Positions 6,978 through 38,947 of a DNA stretch of 48,537 nt are shown one piece after another; the first letter of the stretch is position 1, and each line of letters begins with the position of its first letter. A model generated the notes under the pieces. It did not search any database. It was not told where the DNA came from and worked only from the letters and a program-made list of their open reading frames with translations. Source of the stretch: Caldifarciminota bacterium (GTDB lineage: Bacteria; Hydrothermota; UBA3073); NCBI GenBank assembly GCA_023129165.1, contig JAGMCL010000153.1:1-48537 (forward strand), in the 5' to 3' direction. The position numbers and the translations under genes were made by a program.

Positions 6978-7184
6978 ATGTCCGATGAGGATATCTTCTC
7001 ACTCATTCGAAACATCAGAAGTCTCCGTCGAGAAATTCCCGTTAAACCCCTCAGAAAGACATCTAAAAAGAAAGATAAGAAACAGATGACTATTGAAGAT
7101 CATCTCAGTAATATAAAAGATGTCAAGCGAGAAGAACTTCTTAAAAAACTTTTGGAGATTAAAAAGAGGAGACAAAATGGCTAG
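6978..7184 (+). CDS. Small basic protein, unknown function
   Basis: A 68-residue Lys/Arg-rich protein (PLRKTSKKKDKKQ) with a helical end. ATG 6978 lacks a Shine-Dalgarno site. A strong AAGGAGGAG lies at the end of the previous gene, and the frame stays open from the overlapping TAATA, so initiation at a non-ATG codon (ATA 6939 or ATT 6948) about 10-13 codons upstream is possible. The 3' end overlaps the methyltransferase gene start at 7177. Confidence 0.5.
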   Translation: MSDEDIFSLIRNIRSLRREIPVKPLRKTSKKKDKKQMTIEDHLSNIKDVKREELLKKLLEIKKRRQNG

Positions 7185-8556
7185 AGATATACAATCAAAA
7201 ATCTGTAATATAAAGATAATAGATGTTAAAATAAGTGATATTGAAGTAGGCAAGCGGTTCCGAGCTGAGATGGGAGATATAGAGGCTCTGGCAGCAAGCA
7301 TAACTAAGGATGGCCTAGTTCAGCCTTTTGCAATTTTCAAGAATCCTGAGCCGGGGAAGCCTTATAAGCTGATTGCTGGAGGCAGAAGATATCAAGCTAT
7401 TGAGTTCATCAAAAGTAGAGAGAATATAGAATTTGTTAGCTGTCGTTTGTATGACCAGGAATTGTCTGAGCTTGAACTTCGTCTGCTGGAGTTTGCCGAA
7501 AACCTCTTTCGTAAGGATCTGAACTGGCAAGAAGACTGTGATCTGAAAGAGCGTATTTTCAATCTACAGCAGAAGATCCACGGAGTCAAAGTCTCAACTG
7601 CCAAAGATGCTCCAGGATACTCGTTAACAGATATGGCTAAGATGACAGGGAGATCGAAGGGATCTTTATCTGAAGATATCTCAATGGCTAAAATGATGAG
7701 AGATGTTCCAGAGGTCGACTGGAACCGGTTCGATACAAAGGAAGATGCGAAAAAGGCTCTAAAAGGAGCTAAGAAGAAGATCATCCAAACTGCTGATGCT
7801 AAGAAGGCAAGGGCTTCACTCGGAACTGGAGAAAGTCTGAAGAGAAAGATCATAGATTCCTATCATGTTGAAGATTTCTTTGAGGGAGTACGAAAGATCG
7901 GAGATAGCACCATTGATCTTATTGATCTTGACCCTCCCTATGCTATTGACCTCGAGAATCAAAAGAAAGGATATGCTTATACAGGCTACAATGAGATAGA
8001 TCCCAAAGACTATCCAAATTTCATGAGGAGAGTTCTCTCTGAATGTTACAGAGTTCTCAAGCCAAACAGCTGGCTTATAAACTGGTTTGGGCCTGAACCC
8101 TGGTTCGATCCTCTTCATCATTGGCTACTAGATGCAGGATTTAAGAACAAACGTATGCCTGCTGAGTGGGTCAAAGGAGAGGAAACGGATGCCCACGTAA
8201 TCGAGCAGACTTCTGGTCAGTGTATGCAGCCTGAGAGAGATCTTGCAAAAACATTCGAGTTTTTCTTTTATGCTCGCAAAGGAGTTCCTCTTTTGGCCAA
8301 ACCAGGTTCCACCAATGTCTTCGGCTATAAGCCTATTCCACCTCAGTTCAAGGTCCATCCAACTGAACGGCCGATTGAGATGATGGCAGATATTCTGACT
8401 ACCTTCGCTCAGCCAAACTCAAATATTTTGGCTCCTTTTGCAGGTTCTGGTAATACTCTGATTGCTGCAGTGATGAATCAGATGATACCGATAGGTTTTG
8501 ATTTGACAGAAGAATATTACGAGAGTTATATAATCAAATGTCATAAGTTGCTATAA
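7177..8556 (+). CDS. ParB-like domain fused to DNA methyltransferase
   Basis: 459 residues. The N-terminal 90 form a ParB/sulfiredoxin-like domain (IEVGKRF..., ALAASITKDGLVQPF, LIAGGRRYQAI). A helix-turn-helix region follows near residues 140-175 (SLTDMAKMTGRSKGSLSEDI). The C-terminal half is a beta-class amino-methyltransferase with motif IV DPPY near 251, HPTERPIEM, and the AdoMet-binding FAGSGNT near 420. DPPY enzymes methylate adenine N6 or cytosine N4. No restriction nuclease gene is adjacent, so protection from host restriction or marking of phage DNA is likely. ATG 7177 follows AGAGGAG. An upstream extension to 7120 would overlap the previous gene. Confidence 0.88.
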   Translation: MARDIQSKICNIKIIDVKISDIEVGKRFRAEMGDIEALAASITKDGLVQPFAIFKNPEPGKPYKLIAGGRRYQAIEFIKSRENIEFVSCRLYDQELSELELRLLEFAENLFRKDLNWQEDCDLKERIFNLQQKIHGVKVSTAKDAPGYSLTDMAKMTGRSKGSLSEDISMAKMMRDVPEVDWNRFDTKEDAKKALKGAKKKIIQTADAKKARASLGTGESLKRKIIDSYHVEDFFEGVRKIGDSTIDLIDLDPPYAIDLENQKKGYAYTGYNEIDPKDYPNFMRRVLSECYRVLKPNSWLINWFGPEPWFDPLHHWLLDAGFKNKRMPAEWVKGEETDAHVIEQTSGQCMQPERDLAKTFEFFFYARKGVPLLAKPGSTNVFGYKPIPPQFKVHPTERPIEMMADILTTFAQPNSNILAPFAGSGNTLIAAVMNQMIPIGFDLTEEYYESYIIKCHKLL

Positions 8557-8687
8557 TGAAAAGACTTCTCAACTGGCTTATAAATTCAAAACATTCTGAG
8601 ATCCTTGGTTCTATTCTTGTTGGGGTAGGTTATGTAGCACTTCTTGTCTTGGTCTTTTTTGTTTATGTTAGTGTGAAAGGGACTTAA
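8556..8687 (+). CDS. Small single-span membrane protein
   Basis: A 43-residue protein with a basic N-terminus (MKRLLNWLINSKHSE) and one transmembrane helix (about residues 17-38). Start and stop interlock with both neighbours: TAATG with the methyltransferase stop, and TAATG with the DNA polymerase start. The tight packing supports real translation. A role in anchoring replication proteins or in membrane disturbance is possible but not shown. Confidence 0.65.
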   Translation: MKRLLNWLINSKHSEILGSILVGVGYVALLVLVFFVYVSVKGT

Positions 8688-11167
8688 TGCAGCCTCCGAA
8701 CTCTAAAACCTTTGTACCTCCTTCGGGGCGATTGGACGCCTCATATGTCTTGGTAGGCGAGCAGCCTGGAAGAGTTGAAGTTAGAGAACGTAGGGTCTTT
8801 GTTGGGCCTGCCGGTAATGAACTCAACAGCGAGCTCAACGCTGCCAATGTTGACCGACCCTTGTGCTATCTGACCAATGTTATCAAAGATCTTGATCGGC
8901 ACAAAGATGCTTATATACAGCTATATAAAAATAAGCGTCTGCTTCCGGACCCTATAGTATCTTCTCAAGGTCAAGCTTACATAGATTTTCTCAGATGGGA
9001 ACTCTCTCAGACCTCTTCTAAATACTTCGGAACTATTGGCGGAATAGCATTGTTTGCTCTTACAGGTCGGACAGGTATTACAAAATGGCGGGGAAGTCTC
9101 CTCGACTGTACTCTTGTTGAGGGACGCAAAGTCATACCGATGCTTCATCCTGCTACTGTGATTGCTCCCAAGTTTCACTATCTTAATAAGCGTTTAATAA
9201 TATTTGATCTCAAGCGCCTCAGAAGCTATCAATCAGGATTAGTAGTTCCTACAGAACGTGAGGTAACTATAGCTCCTACCTTTATCCAAGTTATAGACTT
9301 CCTCAACTATTGTCAGCAAAAAGGACTTGAAGGAAATAGAATTAGCTATGATATTGAGGTCTTCATGAATCGAGTCCATAAGCAGGTCAGCTGTATAGCG
9401 TTTGCTGTCAATCGTCATGCTATGTGTATTCCTTTCACAGATAGTAATGGCGACTACTTTGTTACCAGACAAGAGATTGAAATATGGAAGAAGATAGCAG
9501 AGATCCTTGAAGAGCCCAAAATCCGTATCTGTGGGCAGAATCTCACTTTCGATGGCCACTTTCTTCTACGCCTCTATGGTATCAGAGTTACTAATCTTGA
9601 TGATACTATGGTAGCCCAGAATACTATTATGCCTGACTATCCGAAGGGACTTGATTTTATAACATCTTTATGGACAGATCATCCTTATTATAAAGCAGAC
9701 GGAAAGGCCTTCTTTAAAGGTAGTGGAAAGTATCAGAAGTTCTGGATCTACAATGCTACCGACGCTAACATCTGTGATGAGGTTATATCCAAACAGATGA
9801 TAGAGGTTGATCGTCTTGATAACATGAATATTTATAAGGAACAAGTGCGATTGATAGAACCTCTCGTTTATATGATGGAGAAGGGTCTCAAAGTCAATGT
9901 CAAAAAGATGGAGACTACAAATAGGGACTATGAAAGTAAGATAATAGAATTTCAAGAACAGCTGAATGAGATGGTTGGAAGACCTCTTAATGCCAACAGT
10001 TCAAAACAGTTGAAAGAATATTTTCTAAATGAGAAGAAAATGAAGCCTTTCACAAAGAATCATAAGATCACCTACGACGACGATGCTATGAAGAGAATGG
10101 TAAGAAAAGGAGTTAAAGAAGCCAAACTTATCCAGCAGATCAGACGCTATACAAAGCTTAGATCAACATATCTGAATCTTGGAAAGATTGACAGTGATGG
10201 AAGAATAAGATGTTCATATAATCCTGTTGGGACTCGTTATAGTCGACTATCATCAAGTAAAAATATATGGGGAACTGGAGGAAATCAACAGAATTGGCCT
10301 CATCACCTTCAAGAATTTCTAATTCCAGACTCTGGCTATATTTATTATGCTTTTGATTTAGAGCAAGCTGAAAATCGTATTGTCGCCTATGTAGGTGAGA
10401 TAATTAATATGATAGAGTGTTTTGAGACCAATCAAGATGTTCATTCGAAGACTGCTAGAATGATTATGATGGTTTATTATCAGATGAGAGAGCTTGGTGA
10501 CCATAATGTATTGGATCTAGCACCGCTTGGTGACGGTACTCATGACTGGAGATTTTATGGAAAGAAAAGTAATCATGGTCTTAATTATGATCTTGGATAC
10601 AAGAACTTTTCTTTGGTCAACGAAATATCTGAGACAGACAGTAAGATGATATACTTAGCCTATCATCGACTCTATCCAGGAGTTCAGCAATCCTACCATT
10701 CTTACGTCAAACAGGAGCTGAGGAACGGAAGAACTCTTACAAATCTTATGGGACGTCAGACACTCTTTCTCGGCGCTATTTCAGGCCCAAAAGCCGATGC
10801 AACATTTAAAGAAGCTTTCTCCTGTATTCCTCAAGGAACAGTAGGAGATATTATTAACCGACAAGGAGTTAACTATATCTATTACAATCAAGATCTCTTT
10901 GAACCAATAGAAATTTTGAGACAAGTTCATGATGAAATAGGGCTCCAGGTTCCTCTAACAACATCCTGGACAGGTCATGCAAAGATGTTAAGATTGATTA
11001 AGAGAAGTCTTGAGCAACCCCTAACAACTCACAATGGACGTACTTTCGTCATTCCGGCCGGTCTGACAATGGGAACTCATATGAATAAAGAGCAGGGGGC
11101 AGAGATCAGTTTTGACGGCGATCTGGCAAATAATTTGAAGCAGAGTTGGGAGAAGCTTAATGAATAA
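8687..11167 (+). CDS. Uracil-DNA glycosylase-like domain fused to family A DNA polymerase
   Basis: 826 residues. The first 190 resemble family 4/5 uracil-DNA glycosylases: YVLVGEQPGRVEVRER, FVGPAGNEL and a later MLHPATVI. Then comes a DnaQ-type 3'-5' exonuclease (YDIEVF near 220; QNLTFDGHFLL) and a polymerase domain with motif A FDLEQAENRIVA near 556 (the usual DYSQIELR is altered), motif B GKKSNHGLNYDLG near 627 and motif C QVHDEIGLQV near 747. It is the replicative polymerase. The fusion could check for uracil in the template or act structurally. Its start shares TAATG with the upstream membrane gene, and its stop overlaps the HNH-derived gene. Confidence 0.92.
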   Translation: MQPPNSKTFVPPSGRLDASYVLVGEQPGRVEVRERRVFVGPAGNELNSELNAANVDRPLCYLTNVIKDLDRHKDAYIQLYKNKRLLPDPIVSSQGQAYIDFLRWELSQTSSKYFGTIGGIALFALTGRTGITKWRGSLLDCTLVEGRKVIPMLHPATVIAPKFHYLNKRLIIFDLKRLRSYQSGLVVPTEREVTIAPTFIQVIDFLNYCQQKGLEGNRISYDIEVFMNRVHKQVSCIAFAVNRHAMCIPFTDSNGDYFVTRQEIEIWKKIAEILEEPKIRICGQNLTFDGHFLLRLYGIRVTNLDDTMVAQNTIMPDYPKGLDFITSLWTDHPYYKADGKAFFKGSGKYQKFWIYNATDANICDEVISKQMIEVDRLDNMNIYKEQVRLIEPLVYMMEKGLKVNVKKMETTNRDYESKIIEFQEQLNEMVGRPLNANSSKQLKEYFLNEKKMKPFTKNHKITYDDDAMKRMVRKGVKEAKLIQQIRRYTKLRSTYLNLGKIDSDGRIRCSYNPVGTRYSRLSSSKNIWGTGGNQQNWPHHLQEFLIPDSGYIYYAFDLEQAENRIVAYVGEIINMIECFETNQDVHSKTARMIMMVYYQMRELGDHNVLDLAPLGDGTHDWRFYGKKSNHGLNYDLGYKNFSLVNEISETDSKMIYLAYHRLYPGVQQSYHSYVKQELRNGRTLTNLMGRQTLFLGAISGPKADATFKEAFSCIPQGTVGDIINRQGVNYIYYNQDLFEPIEILRQVHDEIGLQVPLTTSWTGHAKMLRLIKRSLEQPLTTHNGRTFVIPAGLTMGTHMNKEQGAEISFDGDLANNLKQSWEKLNE

Positions 11168-11432
11168 AATGAATAGAAAATTCTGGTCTAAAGTAAATAT
11201 TGGAAAGTCTGACGAGTGCTGGAACTATAAGGAAGGTAAATTTAGTAATGGCTATGATGAGGCTCCCTTTCATAGAGCAAAAATATCTGCAAATACTATT
11301 AAATTTATAAGAAGAATGAAAGGAAAATATTCTCGAAGACATATGGCTAAGATTTGTAGAGTTAATGATAACGCAATATATCGTATTTGGAACTCAAACA
11401 AATATCCATGTATAGAAGGCTTCTATGCCTGA
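11160..11432 (+). CDS. HNH-endonuclease-derived protein lacking the HNH core
   Basis: The 90-residue protein matches both ends of the full HNH protein at 37047. FWSKVNIGKSDECWNYK corresponds to FTSKIDICSDDECWLWK, and the last 65 residues, through a helix-turn-helix-like stretch (KYSRRHMAKICRVNDNAIYRIW) to the ending NKYPCIEGFYA, correspond to the full protein's C-terminus. The central part with the catalytic His-Asn-His region is absent, so it should not cut DNA but could still bind it. The start overlaps the polymerase stop, and its last codons overlap the next ATG (11425). Confidence 0.7.
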   Translation: MNKMNRKFWSKVNIGKSDECWNYKEGKFSNGYDEAPFHRAKISANTIKFIRRMKGKYSRRHMAKICRVNDNAIYRIWNSNKYPCIEGFYA

Positions 11433-12642
11433 TAAACGAGAATTGAAAGACTGGTTTGATACGTACATGTATTATACTCATGGAAGTTTGGAAGATCTTC
11501 ATTCCGAGCCTCCTATAAACTACCATAAGTGGATGGCTATAGCTACAATTGCAGCAGCTCTTCAAAGAAAGTGTAGAATAAGATGGGGTTCGATTACTTT
11601 TTATCCTAATTTCTATATTATTTTAGTAGCTCCTGCAGGTCAGGCTCGTAAGGGAACAGCTATGGATTTTGCTAAAGGATTCCTTGATAGACTAATGATA
11701 CCTATGTCTCCTGATGCTACATCATTACAAGCTCTTATCAGACGTATGAGTGAATGTACCAATACTGAGGAAGAGGCAGAAAAAGGATACTTTGAGAGTC
11801 ACTCATCATTGACAGCTTTCTCACCTGAACTAACTGTCTTTCTTGGATTTGCTAACAAAGAGTTAATATCGAATCTTTGTGACTTCTATGACTGCCGAAA
11901 TAGATTCGTATATGAAACTATAAGTAGAAATGCTGAGGAGATTGTTGGAGTATTTCTCAATCTTGTAGGAGCTACAACACCGGAACTAATCCAAGGAAGT
12001 ATGTCAGCTGATACCATTGGAAGTGGTCTACCAAGTCGAATGATCTTTGTCTATGAGCCAAGAATAGTTAAAAGAGTAGTCTATCCTTTCTTTACTCTAT
12101 CTAACAAAGGTCAAGTCATCGAACAGCAACTAGTAAAGGATCTAACACAGATAAGATCTCTTAAAGGTGATTTTAAGGTATCTAAAGATTTCCTCGATCT
12201 ATGGACAGACTGGTACGGAAATTATCCAGATATCTGTCCGTTTGATCCTACTCATTTTGGGGGCTACTGGGAGAGACGCCCAACACACATTATGAAAATG
12301 TCTATGGTTATGTCTGCCAGTAGATCTAATAGTATGCTTTTGACAGAGAATGATTTAAAGAAGTCTATAAAACTGTTAGAGGATACAGAACAAAAAATGG
12401 CTAACGTATTTAATCTTATGGGAAGAAGTGATCAGGCAGATACTATTCAGAAGGTAATGAACTTCGTAGCTCGTTATGGAGAGGTTTCAATGACTCAACT
12501 TATGCAAAAGTTTTTGATGTTTGTCAGCGAAGTAGAGCTTGATCAGATTCTTGGCTCTCTTAGGGCATCGAAGTTCATCCATGCACCGATCTCAAGAGGG
12601 AGTGAGATTTATATTAAACATAAAGGGTTAGGAGAATTATGA
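11425..12642 (+). CDS. DUF3987-like P-loop ATPase, probable replicative helicase/primase-associated protein
   Basis: The 405-residue protein has the DUF3987 layout: PPINYHKWMAIATIAAAL near the N-terminus, a P-loop-like APAGQARKGTAM near residues 71-82, and an acidic strand SSLTAFSPELTVFL. A helical tail and a winged-helix-like end follow (EVSMTQLMQKFLMFVSEVELDQIL). Such proteins are found in phage and mobile-element replication modules and are thought to act as helicases. No DnaB- or RepA-type helicase is otherwise evident here, so this is the best candidate. It follows the polymerase, separated only by the HNH-derived gene. Confidence 0.75.
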   Translation: MPDKRELKDWFDTYMYYTHGSLEDLHSEPPINYHKWMAIATIAAALQRKCRIRWGSITFYPNFYIILVAPAGQARKGTAMDFAKGFLDRLMIPMSPDATSLQALIRRMSECTNTEEEAEKGYFESHSSLTAFSPELTVFLGFANKELISNLCDFYDCRNRFVYETISRNAEEIVGVFLNLVGATTPELIQGSMSADTIGSGLPSRMIFVYEPRIVKRVVYPFFTLSNKGQVIEQQLVKDLTQIRSLKGDFKVSKDFLDLWTDWYGNYPDICPFDPTHFGGYWERRPTHIMKMSMVMSASRSNSMLLTENDLKKSIKLLEDTEQKMANVFNLMGRSDQADTIQKVMNFVARYGEVSMTQLMQKFLMFVSEVELDQILGSLRASKFIHAPISRGSEIYIKHKGLGEL

Positions 12643-12700: not shown

Positions 12701-12910
12701 ATGTATTTAGATATAAAAACTAGAGAAAGTGATAAGTGCGTAATCTGTCACAGACTTTTAGATGGAGGGGATAGTCCGTGGTCAATATGCTTTGACCCAT
12801 ACTGGAAGCACAACTGTTGGGGCGGAGACACGCATGAATATAAAGCATTGTTGTGCCAGGATTGCGTAGATAAACTATTGAATCCCGTAAAAGCCCCACT
12901 CCGTTCATAA
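12701..12910 (+). CDS. Small zinc-finger protein
   Basis: The 69-residue protein has CVICHRL near residues 13-19 and LCQDC near 51-55, a treble-clef or HNH-like zinc arrangement, with intervening His and Cys (WKHNCWGGDTHE). It may be a zinc-binding regulator or a very short HNH relative. AAAAAGG precedes its ATG. The stop codon falls in the spacer of dyad element copy 4. The 58 bp between it and the DUF3987 gene contain nothing recognisable. Confidence 0.6.
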   Translation: MYLDIKTRESDKCVICHRLLDGGDSPWSICFDPYWKHNCWGGDTHEYKALLCQDCVDKLLNPVKAPLRS

Positions 12911-12921
12911 TCCGAATGAAG
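12899..12921 (+). repeat. 23-bp dyad element, copy 4
   Basis: CTCCGTTC, ATAATCC, GAATGAAG. It includes the preceding stop codon and runs straight into GGAGG, the ribosome-binding site of the capsid-arm-like gene at 12935. Confidence 0.9.
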
Positions 12922-12934
12922 GAGGTGAAGGAAG

Positions 12935-13204
12935 ATGAATAGAAGAAGATTTATAAAAGGGTCTCTGATTTTACTTAGTTTATCTATAACCAACCCAAGA
13001 CAGTTTATAGATACCATAGCTAATTTATATAAGTCCAAAAAGAAAGAGAAATGGAAAGGCAAGATGCTTATATCTGGAGAAAGCTGGAGAAATAAGATAC
13101 TTCATCTGCACCCGGATAAAAATGCTCCATTATATGAGATACTGAAGAGATCAAAACCACTCAAAGATCCTAAATTTTCCTGGTGGGGGGACAGACCAAA
13201 ATGA
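12935..13204 (+). CDS. Capsid N-arm-like protein with twin-arginine-like N-terminus
   Basis: 89 residues. Residues 3-8 (RRRFIK) followed by a hydrophobic run (GSLILLSLSI) resemble a twin-arginine signal or signal anchor, though the hydrophobic run is short and no AxA cleavage site is seen. Residues 51-84 match residues 21-56 of the major capsid protein at 30126: WR.K.L.L.P...APL..IL, then DP.F.WW, about 18 identities in 34 with one two-residue gap. The rest of the capsid fold is absent. It is made with the replication genes, not the virion genes. Possible roles are assembly control, capsid tethering or superinfection exclusion. Its stop overlaps the next ATG. Confidence 0.8.
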   Translation: MNRRRFIKGSLILLSLSITNPRQFIDTIANLYKSKKKEKWKGKMLISGESWRNKILHLHPDKNAPLYEILKRSKPLKDPKFSWWGDRPK

Positions 13205-13521
13205 CGACTTCCAGAGCTGATATGAAGAAAATAGCTGATCTCTTACACACCATCTACTGTGGTAAGCAACATGAGCTACAGATGGAACTCTTCAGCAAAA
13301 CTAACAAGTGCAAGTATTACCTCGAGGAAAGTATAGATCGAACATGGGAGTTAGAAGAACATAGGGAGTGGCTAGGACAAGCTCAGTGTCTGATATCTGT
13401 CTCTCATCCACTAGAAGTCACAGAAGTTCTTGGGGACATTGTTAAGATATATCAGATAGCTGAAAAGCTACGGAAAGTTAATCCGAAGCTTTTTAGTTAT
13501 ATTTTAATGTTGATAAAGTAA
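13201..13521 (+). CDS. Helical protein, unknown function
   Basis: A 106-residue helical protein with three Cys scattered in the first two thirds and a hydrophobic C-terminus. No family is recognised. ATG 13201 forms an ATGA overlap with the capsid-arm-like gene, indicating coupling, so the two may act together. An earlier in-frame start at 13183 would lie further inside that gene and is less likely. Confidence 0.65.
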   Translation: MTTSRADMKKIADLLHTIYCGKQHELQMELFSKTNKCKYYLEESIDRTWELEEHREWLGQAQCLISVSHPLEVTEVLGDIVKIYQIAEKLRKVNPKLFSYILMLIK

Positions 13522-26134: not shown

Positions 26135-26656
26135 TTATACAATCCTAATCGCCATAGTATGTTCAGTTCCACAGACTACAAATTCCCAAGTATCTTCGCC
26201 TCTGTCAGGTACAGATTGCGATATTGAACCAAATTCATTTCTATTCGTTGCGTCACCGCTTGTACCTATTGCAAGCTGACCTTTCCTATTTCTTCCAGTG
26301 CTTTGAAGCTTTAAATTACTATAAAGAGCTAAAGAATGTTGAGAACCTCCGCTAAACTGTGGAAGACCATTAAAACCATTGTATTTCCAACCTTCTGATA
26401 TTTTAGTAAAAACATTTCTATTAGTATTATCTGCCAAACCTAACTGACCATAATAATTATATCCGGTTCCATATAGTGATCCGCCTGTCTTCACTGCTAA
26501 AGTAAAATCAGCTCCGCACTCTGCATATTCCCAATCAGAATCAGAACCAACCTGTGTCCATATATTTCTATAAGTAGTATCACCCTGCCCTAACTGTCCT
26601 TTATGATTTCTTCCTGTTGTCCAGAGTGTTCCGTCAGACCTGACGGCAGCAGCATG
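26135..26656 (-). pseudogene. 3' part of the RCC1-repeat gene, after an in-frame UGA
   Basis: The reading frame of the RCC1-repeat protein continues without shift for 173 more codons after the TGA at 26657-26659. It encodes at least three more RCC1-type blades (RSDGTLWTTGRNHKGQLGQG, GSLYGTGYNYYGQLGLA and others) and ends at TAA 26135. An internal restart at ATG 26494 is possible but has no ribosome-binding site that I can see. Either UGA is read through to give a 779-residue protein, or this part is lost. Confidence 0.7.
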
Positions 26657-28474
26657 TCAAGCTCCGATGGAAACTTGCTTCCATCCAGTTCCTATCGCCT
26701 GCGTAAAAGTATTTCTATTAACTTCATCCCCAAGACCTAATTGGCCTGCGCTTGAACCGCTATTACGACCAACAACCCACAATGTACCGTCGTTCTTAAT
26801 TGCCATAGTAGCATAACTACCAGCAGCCAGAAATATCCAGTCAGAACTTATTTGAGTAAACACATTTCTCTTAGTATTATCACCTAAGCCAAGCTGGCCA
26901 TAATAATTATGCCCAGTACCCCAAAGAATACCATCTTTTCCAAGTCCTACTGTATGCCAAATTCCACAAGCAACTTGTTGCCAAGAAGCAGACGATATTT
27001 GGATAAAACCATATACTATTTCACTTTTGTTATCTCCGAGTCCTAATTGACTATAAACATTTCTTCCGGTTCCCCATAAAGAATCATCGTCTTTAATAGC
27101 CACCGTATGATCTTGCCAACTATCAACAGCTAACCATGTATCTTCATTACATAAAGTTAATTGAGTTACTATACCATGATAGCCAATTCCCATCTGACCT
27201 TTGAAAGAATATCCAACCGCCCATAAAGTTCCATTACTTTTTAAAGCAATCCGATGCCACCATCCACCACTGGTCAAAGACCAAAATTCATCTACTTTTT
27301 GGAGAGTTGTTATATTTTTATCATAACTTCCTATGCCTAATTTACCGTAGTTATTAGAGCCAGTTGCCCAAATTTCGCCATTTGTCTTAGTAACATATGT
27401 TGAATCAACTCCACATTCCACAGAAGCCCAATCGCTGTCAGAACCAATCTGTGTAAATAAATCTACGCTGGCAGTAGCGCCAAGTCCTATCTGGCCTACA
27501 TTATTGAGTCCGGTTCCCCATAATGTTCCGTCTGTTTTTATAGCAACTGTATAATATGTACCACAACCAACTTTACTCCAACCAGCTCCAACCAAGGTAA
27601 ATACAGTCTTGTGATCATAAGCAGGAAATCCTAATTCACCGTACGGATTATAACCAGTAGTATAAAGACTTCCATCATCTTTAATGATTGCTGAATGAAG
27701 TTCTCCACAGGCCGCTACTGCATGATCAGTATCCGAGCCAATTTGAGTAAATGTAGTTACATTTCCAACTGCCCCCATACCAAGCTGGCCAAGAGAATTA
27801 TCGCCAGATCCCCAGAGAGTTCCAGTCGTTTTAATAATCAGTACATGGCCATATCCGCAGGCAATACTCTCAAAGTTCGATATAGAAACCTGCGTAAATG
27901 TTGTTCTTTGTGTAGTATCTCCAAGCCCTAACTGACCACTACTATTGGCGCCTGTTGCCCACACAGTACCATTTGTTTTAATAGCGAAGGTAAAATATGC
28001 ACCACAGACAACTTGATCCCAATCAGAATCAGAACCCACTTGAGTAAGCTCATATCTCGTCGTTGTATCTCCAAGTCCGAGTTGACCATTGGAATTATAT
28101 CCAGTAGCCCAAAGTGTACCATCACTTTTAATAGCCATTGAATGAAGAAGACCTGCCGATATATCTGACCATGTTTCCGCAGATATCAAAAGATAATAAA
28201 TAGAACCAATTGGAATATCGTCTATTCCTAACTGATTATATTCATTATCTCCTGCTCCATAGAGATTGCCATATAAAGATGGAGGTGCGTAACCTTTTGG
28301 CCAATAACCACACCAAGGATTATGAACTGGAGTCACAAGAGGGCCTGGAAAGTCCATATCCCATACGGGATTACCGGCATTGCTGATAAGATTGCCTTCG
28401 TTATAATGAGGCTTATCTGGCTGCGGTATAAACGGCCAAGGTCCTGCCCCTTTATATTTATCAATCCAAGTCAT
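26657..28474 (-). CDS. RCC1-repeat (beta-propeller) fibre protein
   Basis: 605 residues. After a 75-residue Pro-rich N-terminus it consists of about eleven 48-52-residue RCC1-type repeats (consensus CG..HT.AIK.DGTLW.TG.N..GQLGLGD...). RCC1 repeats form seven-bladed propellers; with the part after the stop there may be two propellers. In this late-operon position it is most likely a tail fibre or receptor-binding protein. It ends at TGA 26657-26659, where aligned repeats have an aromatic residue such as Trp. The start overlaps the upstream stop as ATGA. Confidence 0.8.
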   Translation of the reverse strand: MTWIDKYKGAGPWPFIPQPDKPHYNEGNLISNAGNPVWDMDFPGPLVTPVHNPWCGYWPKGYAPPSLYGNLYGAGDNEYNQLGIDDIPIGSIYYLLISAETWSDISAGLLHSMAIKSDGTLWATGYNSNGQLGLGDTTTRYELTQVGSDSDWDQVVCGAYFTFAIKTNGTVWATGANSSGQLGLGDTTQRTTFTQVSISNFESIACGYGHVLIIKTTGTLWGSGDNSLGQLGMGAVGNVTTFTQIGSDTDHAVAACGELHSAIIKDDGSLYTTGYNPYGELGFPAYDHKTVFTLVGAGWSKVGCGTYYTVAIKTDGTLWGTGLNNVGQIGLGATASVDLFTQIGSDSDWASVECGVDSTYVTKTNGEIWATGSNNYGKLGIGSYDKNITTLQKVDEFWSLTSGGWWHRIALKSNGTLWAVGYSFKGQMGIGYHGIVTQLTLCNEDTWLAVDSWQDHTVAIKDDDSLWGTGRNVYSQLGLGDNKSEIVYGFIQISSASWQQVACGIWHTVGLGKDGILWGTGHNYYGQLGLGDNTKRNVFTQISSDWIFLAAGSYATMAIKNDGTLWVVGRNSGSSAGQLGLGDEVNRNTFTQAIGTGWKQVSIGA

Positions 28475-30125: not shown

Positions 30126-31412
30126 TTAAGGAGTACCGTTGTCAGAACCAAAACCACTTAGGAAGCCTGTCTTTGCATAGTGATGAAATTCAAGACCTGC
30201 CTCAGTCAGATATTCCTCATCGGTTCCGTCAATTCTATTCCGACCTGTGTTCTGTTTGTCCGGATCGTTATAGAAAGTGGTATCGTCGATATAGCGATAG
30301 TTGAGATCTTTAGGCTCAAAGACCACCATACAATTACGGTTCGTTACCTCATAACTGAACAATGGATGAATCTTAATATGAAGGTCTCCAAAAGGAGTAG
30401 TCCATGTCTTAACCTTGATCCCATAGTCAGTTGTAGTTGATTTAAACTCGTAATTACCGTATTCCTTGATCAGTTTATTGATTGCAAGAACAACTCCTGA
30501 ACCGGCGAAGGCCAGACGATCTTCGGCACCATAACGGAAAAGTGCCTCGAGTTGAATATCCAGCCACTCCTCACCACCTGATAGCCAGGAGGTATCAGTA
30601 AAATCTGTATCAGTAGTGAAATCAGAAACATTACCGCTGTTGTCAATTACCGATCTTACAAGACCTGCAGTTGTTCTCTCCTGCTTACCGTTATCTCCGA
30701 TATTCTCGGTTCGAATCCCCCATAAGAAGGCCTTTTCCATCTCACATGAGTGAAGTTCAAGACACTCTCGTTTGGCTTCCTTATATTGATCACCAGTTCG
30801 AAGTTTGGTCTTTCGAGCTGTCCGGGTGATACTCAGAGGGGTTCGGAAGATCTGAGTGTAGTTATAATGCTTGGTCGGATCATAGGCAATCGCTGATGGC
30901 ATTGTACCACCCTCAGGATTGATATTACCTATAACCAGAATCCTATCACAATCAGCGATACCGGTTGTCGTTGGATCTGCCTCCAAAAGCTTAACAGCAA
31001 TATAACTTGAGGAACCGTTGAGAACAACATTGGTAATCTTCCCATTAGTATCATCAAGAAAGTTAACTGTATTACGAAGCAGAACCTGATGGCCTGCACG
31101 AAACTCCTTACAAGCCGCTTCAGTTGCGATGTTACAGTAGAGGATATCTCCGGCCGCTCCCCCTGTGGTATACTCAGTAGTCGAGAGATCTGCTGTTTTC
31201 CATACACTGACAACCGTAGCTGCCTGTGAAGCTAGACTCTTAGTCCACCAATTAAACTCAGGATCATCTGTTAATTCCTCCTTCATCATAGAAAGTATTG
31301 CAGTTAATGGGGCATCTCCATTTGGATAGAGTTGCAAGACTTTCTGTCTCCAGTTTTTGGGCCGTTGATCGGTTACCCAATCTCCATTGCCTCTCATACC
31401 TAAAAAGGCCAT
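30126..31412 (-). CDS. Major capsid protein (DUF5309-like)
   Basis: 428 residues. The N-arm DQRPKNWRQKVLQLYPNGD, then APLTAILSMMK and DPEFNWW, is characteristic of DUF5309-type major head proteins, followed by a mixed alpha/beta HK97-like body. Late landmarks are FGDLHIKIHPLFS and GLEFHHYAKTGFL. It forms the shell, assembled on the acidic scaffold encoded upstream. A terminator-like hairpin follows the gene. Residues 21-56 are copied in the early gene at 12935. AAGGAG precedes the ATG. Confidence 0.9.
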   Translation of the reverse strand: MAFLGMRGNGDWVTDQRPKNWRQKVLQLYPNGDAPLTAILSMMKEELTDDPEFNWWTKSLASQAATVVSVWKTADLSTTEYTTGGAAGDILYCNIATEAACKEFRAGHQVLLRNTVNFLDDTNGKITNVVLNGSSSYIAVKLLEADPTTTGIADCDRILVIGNINPEGGTMPSAIAYDPTKHYNYTQIFRTPLSITRTARKTKLRTGDQYKEAKRECLELHSCEMEKAFLWGIRTENIGDNGKQERTTAGLVRSVIDNSGNVSDFTTDTDFTDTSWLSGGEEWLDIQLEALFRYGAEDRLAFAGSGVVLAINKLIKEYGNYEFKSTTTDYGIKVKTWTTPFGDLHIKIHPLFSYEVTNRNCMVVFEPKDLNYRYIDDTTFYNDPDKQNTGRNRIDGTDEEYLTEAGLEFHHYAKTGFLSGFGSDNGTP

Positions 31413-35104: not shown

Positions 35105-37033
35105 TTAACCTCCCAAAATCTGATCTATCGGCAACATATTTCCTTTTCCAGCCTGTCCCTCAGCCTCTTCATCCGTCTGCAGTTTCACTCGTACAAATTC
35201 GTCAACATTCTTAGCACCACTATTACGAGCAATATGCTTAAAAATTCTCACAATATCGAAAGTCTGCTGAAGCTCAGGTTGACTAGCCAAAGTCTCGAAC
35301 ATATTTATCCAAACTCCAGAGGTGTTACTTCCTGGAACAGAACCATCTCTTACCTTTACATCATAATCGATGAGAATGTCGAAGGGAGAAGCCTTTATAT
35401 GAGTGGTACCCCCAAATTCCTTCATTAAAGTCTCTTGCCATCGACCAGTAGTTGTAAGTGAGAGTTCCTTTGACATAAACTGCTGAGTATGATGAGCAAA
35501 CATATATCCAACATCTTGCATTGCCTGAACACCTATTAGACGAGCAATTCTTTCCAGTCTTGTATAGCCCCCCTGACGGGTACCCTCAAATTCTCCTTTA
35601 GTCAGTCTCTCAGGACCTCCTTGTCTCAGACTCCCCATCGTCCAAGAGTCAGTTGCTGCAATCTTATCCATAGCATTCTGAATTATCGAGGCATCTGCAA
35701 CATGTCCACGGGTAACATCTGAAACAGCTAATTGCATAACAGAGTCTTTCACACCTCTTCCCCATGCAGGCCTACGAAGTCTTACAATCCCTCCAGGTCT
35801 AGGATCTTTAAGATCAGGTACGTTAATGAGGTAAGGATCAACAATAAGAGTATCATTAATAACTTTTCTTACATTTGCTATATGAGCATTGAACATCCAG
35901 TCAAGAGTATGCTGCAATCCATAAAGGGTCTCTAGACGAGATACTGGAGTAGAACTATACCCATCAAAGTCCGGAGCAGAAATAGCTATAGGAAACATAT
36001 CATGAGCCAGACCAATAGATCTGGCCTCAAGAACTATTGCGTCAGCTCCAAGAACAAAGTACCATTTCTCAGGATACTCACCAACTCCAAGTTCCCACTC
36101 TTTTGGAATCAGTTTCATATACATTCTGATAACATCATAGGGATTAGTAGCATTATTATTAAAAGGAACTCGAGCTCCTCCACTCTTTTTATCTCTTCCA
36201 GACTGCTCAGCAGAGTAAATACTAGTTTGCTTTCCGGTTATCTGCTTCAAATATTTTACATTAAAAATCTTTCCATCAGAATGTTCTTCATCAGAAAGAA
36301 GATCATAATAATTAGTATGATCTATCCACCCAAAGAACTCACCTTTCTGAATATCTGCAATTGAAATATTAGGATCAGGTAAACACAAATAAGGATCTAT
36401 ATTAGACAGAGCATTCCCCTCAAAAATAATACCATTCCTCATAGTCTTCCGATGAGTATCAGGAGCAAACCAATGAGGGATAGTCTCCTTTACAATCTTC
36501 TTTCCCTGCGTCTTCCTCCATTCTGGAGCAACAACTCCAAAACCATAAGAGAGAGAATCCCTAAACATTGTATGAAGATTGAGAATTATCTTAAATCTAT
36601 TACAATGAATATCGATTATCTTCTCAAGCATTATGGCACCAATAGTATCCTCAGGTGAGACTCCCTCATATCTGAAAACAGGTTCTTGGAAAAATGCTGC
36701 AAGAAGATAGCCCAAAATAGTCTCTAAGATAGCATAGGAATAAGGATAGATAATAGAGATCGGCTTACGGTGATCCTTATCTATAATAGCTTCCTCAGCA
36801 TCATCTGTCTCAATATAAGATGTCAATGTCTCATCAATCTTATTCCAAGAATCAAAACGATTAGACATAGGTCCTGAGGCTTCTCGAGCCTTCTTCATAA
36901 CTTCAGTTTTAATTCTATTATGAAGCTTACTCCCAGGTCTAAGATCAAGATCTCCTGGATAGTCATACTTATAGTCAACTTTCCCAAGTTCTATAGCATT
37001 TCTATCCTTATTTGGATCAAGTATATGTGGCAC
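35105..37033 (-). CDS. Portal protein
   Basis: A 642-residue protein. The N-terminal part (KARE.SGPMSNRFDSWNKIDETLTSYI) and central helices (LETLYGLQHTLDWMFNAHIANVRK, then DPYLINVPDL) match podovirus-type portal proteins, which form the dodecameric DNA entry ring at one capsid vertex. Start codon is GTG 37033, with GGGGAGG six bases upstream. The first seven codons (MPHILDP) and the preceding leader are nearly repeated at the start of the HNH gene beside it. It is separated from the terminase by about 4.6 kb of lysis and accessory genes. Confidence 0.85.
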   Translation of the reverse strand: MPHILDPNKDRNAIELGKVDYKYDYPGDLDLRPGSKLHNRIKTEVMKKAREASGPMSNRFDSWNKIDETLTSYIETDDAEEAIIDKDHRKPISIIYPYSYAILETILGYLLAAFFQEPVFRYEGVSPEDTIGAIMLEKIIDIHCNRFKIILNLHTMFRDSLSYGFGVVAPEWRKTQGKKIVKETIPHWFAPDTHRKTMRNGIIFEGNALSNIDPYLCLPDPNISIADIQKGEFFGWIDHTNYYDLLSDEEHSDGKIFNVKYLKQITGKQTSIYSAEQSGRDKKSGGARVPFNNNATNPYDVIRMYMKLIPKEWELGVGEYPEKWYFVLGADAIVLEARSIGLAHDMFPIAISAPDFDGYSSTPVSRLETLYGLQHTLDWMFNAHIANVRKVINDTLIVDPYLINVPDLKDPRPGGIVRLRRPAWGRGVKDSVMQLAVSDVTRGHVADASIIQNAMDKIAATDSWTMGSLRQGGPERLTKGEFEGTRQGGYTRLERIARLIGVQAMQDVGYMFAHHTQQFMSKELSLTTTGRWQETLMKEFGGTTHIKASPFDILIDYDVKVRDGSVPGSNTSGVWINMFETLASQPELQQTFDIVRIFKHIARNSGAKNVDEFVRVKLQTDEEAEGQAGKGNMLPIDQILGG

Positions 37034-37046
37034 AGATCATCCTCCC

Positions 37047-37604
37047 CTACACAAAATAACCATCTCTACATGGATACTCATTACTATTCCATATTTTCCA
37101 TATAGTCATACTAGTAGTTTTAAATATTTTAGCAACATACTCACAAGAATGCTTATATCTCTTAGGACATATAGATCTGATGATCTTTAGTTTTCTAATT
37201 CGTCGAATATCCATTGCATAAAACTTTGCTGAAGAGAAGATTCCTTTCCCTATAACTTCCTTGGTCATTCTCTTTTGCCCTCTCTTGTAAGCATCATTCA
37301 TATTATCTGTATTGGTACCTAAATATAAATGATTAGGATTTACACAAGAAGAATTGTCGCATTTGTGGAGTACGAATATTCTCTGTCCTATTTCATTATA
37401 GAGTGGAATCTTTCCATATTTTATAAGATAAGCCATTCTACTAGACCGAACTGATCTATTCATAAAGTAAAACACTCCATATCCTTGAAGATCTCTACCT
37501 CCCTTCCACAGCCAACATTCATCATCCGAACAAATATCTATTTTACTCGTAAAACGTCTTAGAACAGAAATATCTATTAACTTCGGATCTAAAATATGAG
37601 GCAC
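37047..37604 (-). CDS. HNH homing-type endonuclease
   Basis: 185 residues. The HNH_3-type core is intact: VLHKCDNSSCVNPNHLYLGT with His80, Asn89 and His92, then NMNDAYKRGQ. The N-terminal DDECWLWKGG and the C-terminal helix-turn-helix-like CEYVAKIFKTTSMTIWKIWNS are standard for free-standing phage homing endonucleases. It would nick or cut related genomes lacking the insertion and promote its own copying. Start is GTG 37604 after AAGGAG. Its first seven residues equal those of the portal protein. Two shortened relatives are at 2698 and 11160. Confidence 0.9.
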   Translation of the reverse strand: MPHILDPKLIDISVLRRFTSKIDICSDDECWLWKGGRDLQGYGVFYFMNRSVRSSRMAYLIKYGKIPLYNEIGQRIFVLHKCDNSSCVNPNHLYLGTNTDNMNDAYKRGQKRMTKEVIGKGIFSSAKFYAMDIRRIRKLKIIRSICPKRYKHSCEYVAKIFKTTSMTIWKIWNSNEYPCRDGYFV

Positions 37605-37837: not shown

Positions 37838-37952
37838 AATTATTTCTCCGTCGCCCTTTCTTTATTAATAATTTAATCGGCAACAATATAATTGCAATTG
37901 CAAACGCAAGCCAGGCCACCCAGCCAAAATGTCTGATTATCGGTGGATACAT
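37824..37952 (-). CDS. Small single-span membrane protein
   Basis: A 42-residue protein with one membrane helix (about residues 9-30) and a strongly basic C-terminus (KKGRRRNNYGKR). The start shares TAATG with the protease stop and the end overlaps the holin-like gene in another frame. Nested placement supports a coupled lysis cassette; it might be a holin partner or regulator. Confidence 0.55.
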   Translation of the reverse strand: MYPPIIRHFGWVAWLAFAIAIILLPIKLLIKKGRRRNNYGKR

Positions 37953-38947
37953 TAATTTTTACCTTCCAGACGAACGTCCAACAACTCAAAAACATGTTCA
38001 ATGCGATTGCAAATAGTTATCTGGTCTGACCCTGCAAACAAAAGACCGCAAAGCTTACTATCCTCTGTTAAAATTGCTGAACCTGAATCGCCTCCAGTGC
38101 TCATAGGCCCACTCATTATTTGATCTGTAAATTGGGCTATCTTCCCCTCGCCATATTGGATATTTGCTGTTACGTTAATTTGGGTAATTTCACCTTGAGT
38201 TAATCCGGTTGTGCGTCCAGATTTTTGAATCTTCATTCCCAATATAGCTGATTTGACTCCTTCGATTTTCCCTATTTCCATGATTTCATCACTGATATCT
38301 TCATCGTTCAAGGGCTGAGCAATTGCTGCATCAACCAAGTTGCTTTCTGCTTGCTTAACAGCTTGCAGACGAGTATTGCTTCTAATTACATATAAAACGC
38401 CGTTAATAATTCTTATAAATAGTCCAGTGATGGGGCACTCAGACGGAATTCCAGAAAAGTTAATTGGCACAAAATCTTTTAAATCAGCAATATGGTCTTC
38501 TGGAAACTTGCCAGAGTCATGGGAGCCTGGCTGAAGTATAGAATCACCAATTTTGGCTTCGTTAGAGCAAGCTAAGACGTGATTATTTGATAACATATAT
38601 CTAATACTATCCTTTTTTACAACACATCCCAAAGTGCCCGCGCTGATCAAAACATGTCCCACCGAAACACCTCCGGGAGCCGGCCTATGACGATTAGTAT
38701 GCAGAGCTTTGATTACCCCTACCTCAATGACATCTGTTTTAACACCCTTAATCTCACGAGGAATTAAATCTTTTTTCGATATTTCTTCTATGGGAAGTTT
38801 TTTTCTTACTGAACAAATAATCGCCAATTCGCATGTCTGTTTTCCGTTTTTTACTTTGTACCCGATTCCTACAGCCTCTATATGTTTTTTTAAGAGTTTT
38901 TTTCGATTTTTAATTAGAGCTTTTTGTACTTTAATGAATAAGACCAT
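37952..38947 (-). CDS. Trypsin-like serine protease
   Basis: 331 residues. A complete chymotrypsin-fold triad can be assigned: His123 in LSNNHVLA, Asp206 in NLVDAAIA and Ser288 in GGDSGSAI. The preceding GTLGCVV strand and the later GSDQITICNRIEHVF are typical of bacterial trypsin-like peptidases of the Nal1-like type. There is no signal peptide; the N-terminal 30 residues are basic. Such proteases are unusual in tailed phages, whose capsid proteases are usually ClpP/S14, S49 or herpes-type. It could process virion proteins, cut host proteins or aid lysis. It lies next to lysis genes. Confidence 0.85.
   Translation of the reverse strand: MVLFIKVQKALIKNRKKLLKKHIEAVGIGYKVKNGKQTCELAIICSVRKKLPIEEISKKDLIPREIKGVKTDVIEVGVIKALHTNRHRPAPGGVSVGHVLISAGTLGCVVKKDSIRYMLSNNHVLACSNEAKIGDSILQPGSHDSGKFPEDHIADLKDFVPINFSGIPSECPITGLFIRIINGVLYVIRSNTRLQAVKQAESNLVDAAIAQPLNDEDISDEIMEIGKIEGVKSAILGMKIQKSGRTTGLTQGEITQINVTANIQYGEGKIAQFTDQIMSGPMSTGGDSGSAILTEDSKLCGLLFAGSDQITICNRIEHVFELLDVRLEGKN

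Follow-up and report, generated by a model that had tools for sequence, protein, structure and literature searches.

The closest described relatives of the protein reported here are the major capsid proteins of the SU10 type (PF17236; VP1 9in6, SU10, Caulobacter phage Kuura). In SU10 itself, the N-terminal arm is one of the regions in which pentamer subunits differ from hexamer subunits (PMC9509320). In phage phi12, whose capsid protein has the HK97 fold, the N-arm contacts the neighboring subunit's P-domain, and mutations in this N-arm/P-domain patch confer resistance to Ccm, a trans-acting capsid homolog of the satellite SaPIbov5 that is capsid-derived and thought to act in trans on assembly (PMC8569155). 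Tab, the tail assembly blocker of a Pseudomonas prophage, is likewise a phage protein that blocks the assembly of another phage's virion (PMC10884400). Pieces of the capsid are also recognized by the host, as illustrated by the Gol peptide of T4 Gp23, which triggers Lit, and by Gp57 of SEC-phi-27, which triggers CapRel (PMC9712102).

The window analyzed here, by which we mean the whole stretch of 48,537 nucleotides, encodes a small protein that touches on several of these systems. It shares its residues 49-84 with the N-arm of SU10-type capsid proteins, but it has no HK97 body, carries an added signal-like N-terminus and departs from the capsid arms in its internal spacing. Whereas the satellite-encoded Ccm is a complete capsid-like protein, the small protein consists of the arm alone behind a signal-like N-terminus and is phage-encoded; the window possesses its own capsid, portal and terminase, unlike satellites lacking capsid genes. 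Tab, in contrast, hits tail assembly via the tape measure protein, is encoded by a prophage and has no capsid arm (PMC10884400), and the Gol peptide and Gp57 are parts of a working capsid protein, while the small arm protein is a separate gene. We would treat the CapRel and Lit triggers and Tab as precedents for ideas, rather than as evidence of membership. Since the capsid fold is absent and the phage has a capsid, portal and terminase of its own, the small protein is neither a capsid protein nor a satellite factor. What is new is the stand-alone capsid arm; a capsid-derived protein acting in trans is of a known kind, and the function in this case is a predicted one. In agreement with a sequence-only reading of the window, which knew of no protein of this design, a fusion of a capsid arm and a signal-like N-terminus was not described in the libraries and literature searched, a body of work that leaves most subscription journals outside.

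The free arm and its counterpart in the capsid protein

The open reading frame lies exactly where the sequence-only reading had placed it, and its translated product is MNRRRFIKGSLILLSLSITNPRQFIDTIANLYKSKKKEKWKGKMLISGESWRNKILHLHPDKNAPLYEILKRSKPLKDPKFSWWGDRPK (89 aa; Table 1). That reading had also aligned it with capsid residues 21-56 at about 18 of 34 identical positions. The homology is real and the figures come close: BLASTP pairs residues 49-84 with the stretch 19-56 in the window's own capsid protein at 17/38 identical and 25/38 similar positions (42 bits, E = 3e-10). This alignment scores 94, against a mean of 29 (sd 4.5, maximum 53) for 2,000 shuffles, none of which is as good, and the other ORFs of the window reach at most 47 against the capsid arm in the same alignment test. 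Profile comparison strengthened the similarity rather than dissolving it: when 19,436 frames were searched with an HMM built on 83 capsid arms, the arm ORF was recovered at E = 4.4e-8, and the best of the other non-capsid frames stood at E = 0.47. The residues kept are those that mark the capsid arm, namely WR..IL.L.P, PL and DP.F.WW.

Searches outside the window lead to the same family. A tblastn comparison of the small protein with 50,697 phage records gave four weak matches, all within capsid genes, and a sequence search of the PDB placed a phage VP1 capsid on top (E = 0.003). With the capsid arm as the reverse query, five capsids were returned along with a single further match, in a Bradyrhizobium phage. 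The latter protein is of a replication type and lacks both PL and DP.F.WW; we consider this match due to chance, as we do a match at G000:C23 that falls inside an unrelated long ORF. In the collections searched, the only credible matches to the copied stretch appear to come from the arms of SU10-type capsids and from a single sister protein with the same design, and the stretch is hence not a common motif unrelated to capsids. On the strength of these sequence comparisons, residues 49-84 are homologous to the N-terminal arm of SU10-type capsid proteins, as far as the WW in the first strand. As had been claimed, nothing further of the capsid fold is present: the 89-aa ORF does not match PF17236, it has none of the HK97-fold body (E-loop, P-domain, A-domain), and it stops five residues past the WW.

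A model of the capsid protein built with 39 sequences (pLDDT 79.6) has the HK97 fold, and its best PDB match is the VP1 capsid 9in6, followed by the crAss001 and SU10 capsids. In the monomer model, pLDDT is below 50 for nearly all of residues 1-38, and residues 52-59, including the WW, form a strand, which suggests that the copied stretch comprises the segment left unpacked against its own subunit, together with the beginning of a strand. For the small protein itself, AlphaFold gave a model too poor for use (pLDDT 58, pTM 0.29). As a separate observation, the capsid gene of a close relative (L008:5988-7790) is broken by two insertions with endonuclease-like ORFs, the second of which splits the codons of the arm, falling between DDPEYN and the WW region; the insertions look like self-splicing introns with homing endonucleases, with no Rfam family reaching threshold.

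Table 1. Features of the window discussed in the text
Feature	Coordinates	Strand	Remarks
ORF matching ParB N-terminal and N6/N4 DNA methylase families	7120..8556	+	One ORF
UDG-PolA DNA polymerase	8687..11167	+	Uracil-DNA-glycosylase-like domain fused to family A polymerase with 3'-5' exonuclease
Primase-like protein	11425..12642	+	
69-aa Cys-rich ORF	12701..12910	+	Same extra segment as the arm gene; no family match
Shine-Dalgarno AGGAGG	12920..12925	+	9 bases ahead of the arm-gene start codon; read from the sequence
89-aa gene, signal-like N-terminus and free capsid N-arm	12935..13204	+	ATG 12935, stop 13202-13204
Residues 1-19, MNRRRFIKGSLILLSLSIT, Tat-like motif and short hydrophobic run	12935..12991	+	Common to the sister protein
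Residues 49-84, copied capsid N-arm, ending at WW	13079..13186	+	BLASTP and arm HMM
Next gene, product beginning MTTS	13201..13521	+	ATGA translational coupling to the arm gene; directly 3' of the primase in relatives
Late-region repeat protein	26135..26494	-	
Late-region repeat protein	26657..28474	-	
Major capsid protein, SU10 type	30126..31412	-	Pfam SU10_MCP PF17236, E = 1.9e-33
Capsid residues 19-56, the N-arm that was copied	31245..31358	-	BLASTP alignment
Portal protein	35105..37033	-	Begins MPHILDP
HNH endonuclease ORF	37047..37604	-	PF13392, E = 5e-6; GTG start; begins MPHILDP
331-aa protein in the structural block	37952..38947	-	Weak trypsin-like and NAL1-like protease matches

A sister protein, gene setting and distribution

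The same fusion was sought in related phages and found once. When IMG/VR was scanned with the small protein aligned to natural capsid arms, a sister protein came to light at L095:128-367 (IMGVR_UViG_3300035698_001119), with the sequence MNRRSCLKRSIMLAGLVAIKPIELLNNIPTVKKIIDPTKIEGWHKKILDLYPSNELPLTKLIYKTRMKIDDPKFTWWNK (79 aa); it begins MNRR, continues through a short hydrophobic run into the arm and stops just past the WW. The window protein and its sister are 36% identical, have their parts in the same order and each end just after the WW; an alignment of just their N-terminal halves scores 49, whereas shuffled sequences average 20 (sd 3.9) and none of 2,000 does as well. The sister's contig also encodes an SU10-type capsid with a normal arm, and the sister gene lies on the opposite strand, just past the last late gene of that contig. 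Because two such divergent copies retain both halves, the fusion is very probably under selection. It looks old as well as selected, and like neither a chance ORF nor a recent copy; the arm proteins look like a real gene family, with two members known.

The manner in which the two free arms depart from the capsid arms is informative. Against 103 distinct capsid arms of equal length, with a position called fixed when at least 90% constant, the window protein keeps 11 and the sister 12 of the 16 capsid-fixed positions, versus 5 and 3 of the remaining 20 (Fisher p = 0.037 for fixed versus other positions in the window protein). Both small proteins have lost the NG turn of the capsid arm, and the distance from PL to DP, 13 residues in all 103 capsids, is 11 in the window protein and 12 in the sister. 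The own capsid ranks only 34 of 113 for the window protein's arm and 72nd for the sister's, and the arm DNA of the window is identical to its own capsid gene at 62/108 bases. The DNA identity and the rank of 34 rule out a recent duplication of the resident capsid arm, and, since the own-capsid rank is low in both proteins, the capture of the arm appears to be old, reflecting neither a recent copy of the resident capsid gene nor an assembly error.

The arm gene sits in a plus-strand block together with the UDG-PolA DNA polymerase, the primase-like protein, a deoxycytidylate-deaminase-like protein and an exonuclease, and the structural genes of the window are on the minus strand, away from it. 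Judging from this position, the arm gene would be made early, with the replication genes. Its stop overlaps the start of the next gene by four bases (ATGA), and relatives of that next gene use the same ATG as their start. In the nearest relatives by primase-like gene (L084-L087, 77-80% identity), the primase is followed directly by the MTTS gene; the window has the 69-aa and 89-aa ORFs in addition. A model of the two arm proteins, compared with two sets of whole virus records, matches 98 of them, in every case including the capsid arm, and a second, non-capsid match occurs in one of these 98 related records, that of the sister; some of the 98 are fragments, so the true frequency of the arm gene may be higher. 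Absent from the locus in L084-L087 and found in 1/98 records, the arm gene is therefore accessory, and it is rare. The other searches agree with this rarity: the 89-aa protein alone had no match in the IMG/VR close-relative search, the sister protein alone recovered only itself, plasmids and the other 146 genomes searched in the same phylum contained no match to the small protein, and DNA patterns for DPKF.WW found capsids, chance ORFs and the known sister, with no third member.

Several neighbors deserve mention in their own right. The 69-aa ORF bears CVIC...CQDC and is weakly and partially similar (E = 3) to a putative DNA endonuclease found in four Pseudomonas phages. Upstream of the polymerase, whose domain fusion is given in Table 1, one ORF matches both ParB N-terminal and DNA methylase families. 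On the minus strand, the HNH endonuclease gene seems to have acquired its start, by takeover or by copying, from the portal gene that lies just downstream, the two products having the same first seven residues. The late-region repeat proteins have repeats like LWGTGHNYYGQLGLGDNTKRNVFTQI, reminiscent of RCC1-type propellers and possibly host-binding, and the structural block includes a 331-aa protein with weak protease matches.

The signal-like N-terminus

The sequence-only reading had described the N-terminus as Tat-like, and this claim holds in part. The window protein does have the motif NRRRFIK and a hydrophobic run of about 11 residues, with NRRSCLK in the sister, and the combination of RR-x-[FLC]-[LIVMF]-K with a hydrophobic run occurs in just three of 4,801 distinct small ORFs of the loci compared, two of the three being the arm proteins. 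The charge pattern is N-in, C-out. A scan of the genomes of 85,462 species with the two-member alignment yielded one confirmed relative, by the N-terminus only, in a Flavobacterium protein (L196) beginning MNRRRFLKGSTLLSGLAVMSPTVIFSND, whose signal is 43% identical to the small protein over 39 residues. From its sequence, we take this to be a Tat substrate of the alkaline-phosphatase type.

In other respects, the small protein differs from Tat signal peptides as known from PF10518 and from the Flavobacterium protein. PF10518 scores 11.6 bits against a cut-off of 22.7 (E = 0.29), below threshold; NCBIfam has no match for the small protein, in which no AxA cleavage site is evident; and the best 19-residue hydropathy of the two arm proteins (0.96 and 1.35) is low for a full membrane helix. 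TatA and TatC were not found in the genome bin that contains the contig (94% completeness), a bin not proven to be the host, nor was TatC found in a congener of the bin, while TatC is present in other genera of its family. The composition of the contig is similar to that of the bin, in which there was no Cas1 and no SSU rRNA match. It is because of the sub-threshold PF10518 score, the lack of an evident AxA site, the short run and the failure to find TatA and TatC in the bin that we use the label signal-like: the N-terminus is predicted to be signal-like or membrane-seeking, and is not a proven Tat signal.

Possible roles of the free arm

We infer that the arm binds what the capsid arm binds. 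The best-supported candidate for that partner is the capsid protein itself, and for this reason we favor an action on assembly in trans. We tentatively propose, as a possibility still short of probable, that the free arm acts in trans by docking on the capsid protein, and that assembly near the membrane would thereby be modulated or blocked. The arm would be a ligand for the site where the arm of a neighboring capsid subunit normally docks, and the N-terminus would direct it to the inner membrane. Produced at the time of the replication genes, ahead of the capsid protein or together with it, the small protein would then act in trans on capsid subunits close to the membrane. The likeliest outcome would be that assembly is held back or diverted, either in a co-infecting phage of the same capsid type or for the phage's own early capsid protein; an essential part in assembly would be a less likely role than interference.

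This proposal is consistent with a homology to the capsid arm and to nothing else, with a second member that has both halves in a phage of the same capsid type, and with the retention of capsid-fixed positions over the others. In the monomer model, moreover, the copied stretch is not packed against its own subunit, and phi12 offers both the N-arm/P-domain contact and the resistance mutations (PMC8569155). Rarity, accessory status and distance from the structural genes suit interference better than a core role in assembly. Nevertheless, by poisoning arm docking a phage that looks virulent might harm itself, the shortened spacing and lost NG turn may misfit the site in the lattice, and a real export signal would put the arm outside the cytoplasm, away from the capsid protein.

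The main rival to action on assembly is a decoy for a capsid sensor, in which the arm, mimicking the most conserved piece of the capsid, would occupy a host sensor at the membrane without activating it. Small accessory genes located among replication genes and mostly absent in relatives are the usual pattern of counter-defence, and the arm gene, absent from nearly all relatives, fits this pattern. That the anchor residues are kept while their spacing drifts is also what a binding ligand free of lattice fit might display. We nonetheless consider a decoy unlikely, and we know of no sensor of this capsid arm. Capsid proteins do trigger CapRel and, via the Gol peptide, Lit (PMC9712102), but the CapRel escape sites are residues 114-115 of SEC-phi-27 Gp57 and hence not N-terminal. 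PADLOC gave no credible match, its only one being PD-T4-6 (E = 0.036) over residues 3-55, the signal and linker region, and no linked defence was seen in either carrier or in the one candidate host bin.

Next in order is an effector in the envelope, the arm having been re-used for another target, located at the inner membrane or past it, for example a partner in lysis or exclusion, with its link to the capsid lost. The Tat-like signal with its N-in, C-out charges, its resemblance to a bacterial signal and the altered anchor spacing point in this direction. The residues kept, however, are those fixed for capsid function, both carriers possess that capsid type, and neither TatA nor TatC was found in the bin, so we regard an envelope effector as rather unlikely.

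It is more unlikely still that the small protein is a structural or assembly-site part, with the arm filling vacant sites in the head, for instance by the portal, or tethering proheads to the membrane at initiation, and with the hydrophobic N-terminus serving as an anchor or an ejected piece. Such an arm would dock in the lattice, and both carriers own a matching capsid, but the occurrence of the gene, beside the window, in one of 98 related records and its placement with the replication genes argue against any general need for it in assembly. Finally, the gene is rare and small with only two members known, as would befit an ORF that is decaying or arose by chance, or a fragment of the capsid joined on through recombination, but an absence of function is improbable given the strong ribosome site and coupled start, the preservation of both halves in two divergent copies, and an arm DNA identity and own-capsid rank that speak against a recent fragment.

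Returning to the free arm as an agent acting in trans, one may envisage membrane-directed mimics of the capsid arm, made before the capsid and titrating either the capsid subunits of a competitor or a host sensor of the arm, as a new class of phage protein; we consider this generalization possible but doubtful. The capsid protein is a phage's main building block and a known trigger of bacterial immunity, and, if the hypothesis is true, phages have cut its arm loose as a tool, and the small arm protein would offer a natural peptide with which to probe the contacts of the arm during HK97-fold assembly.
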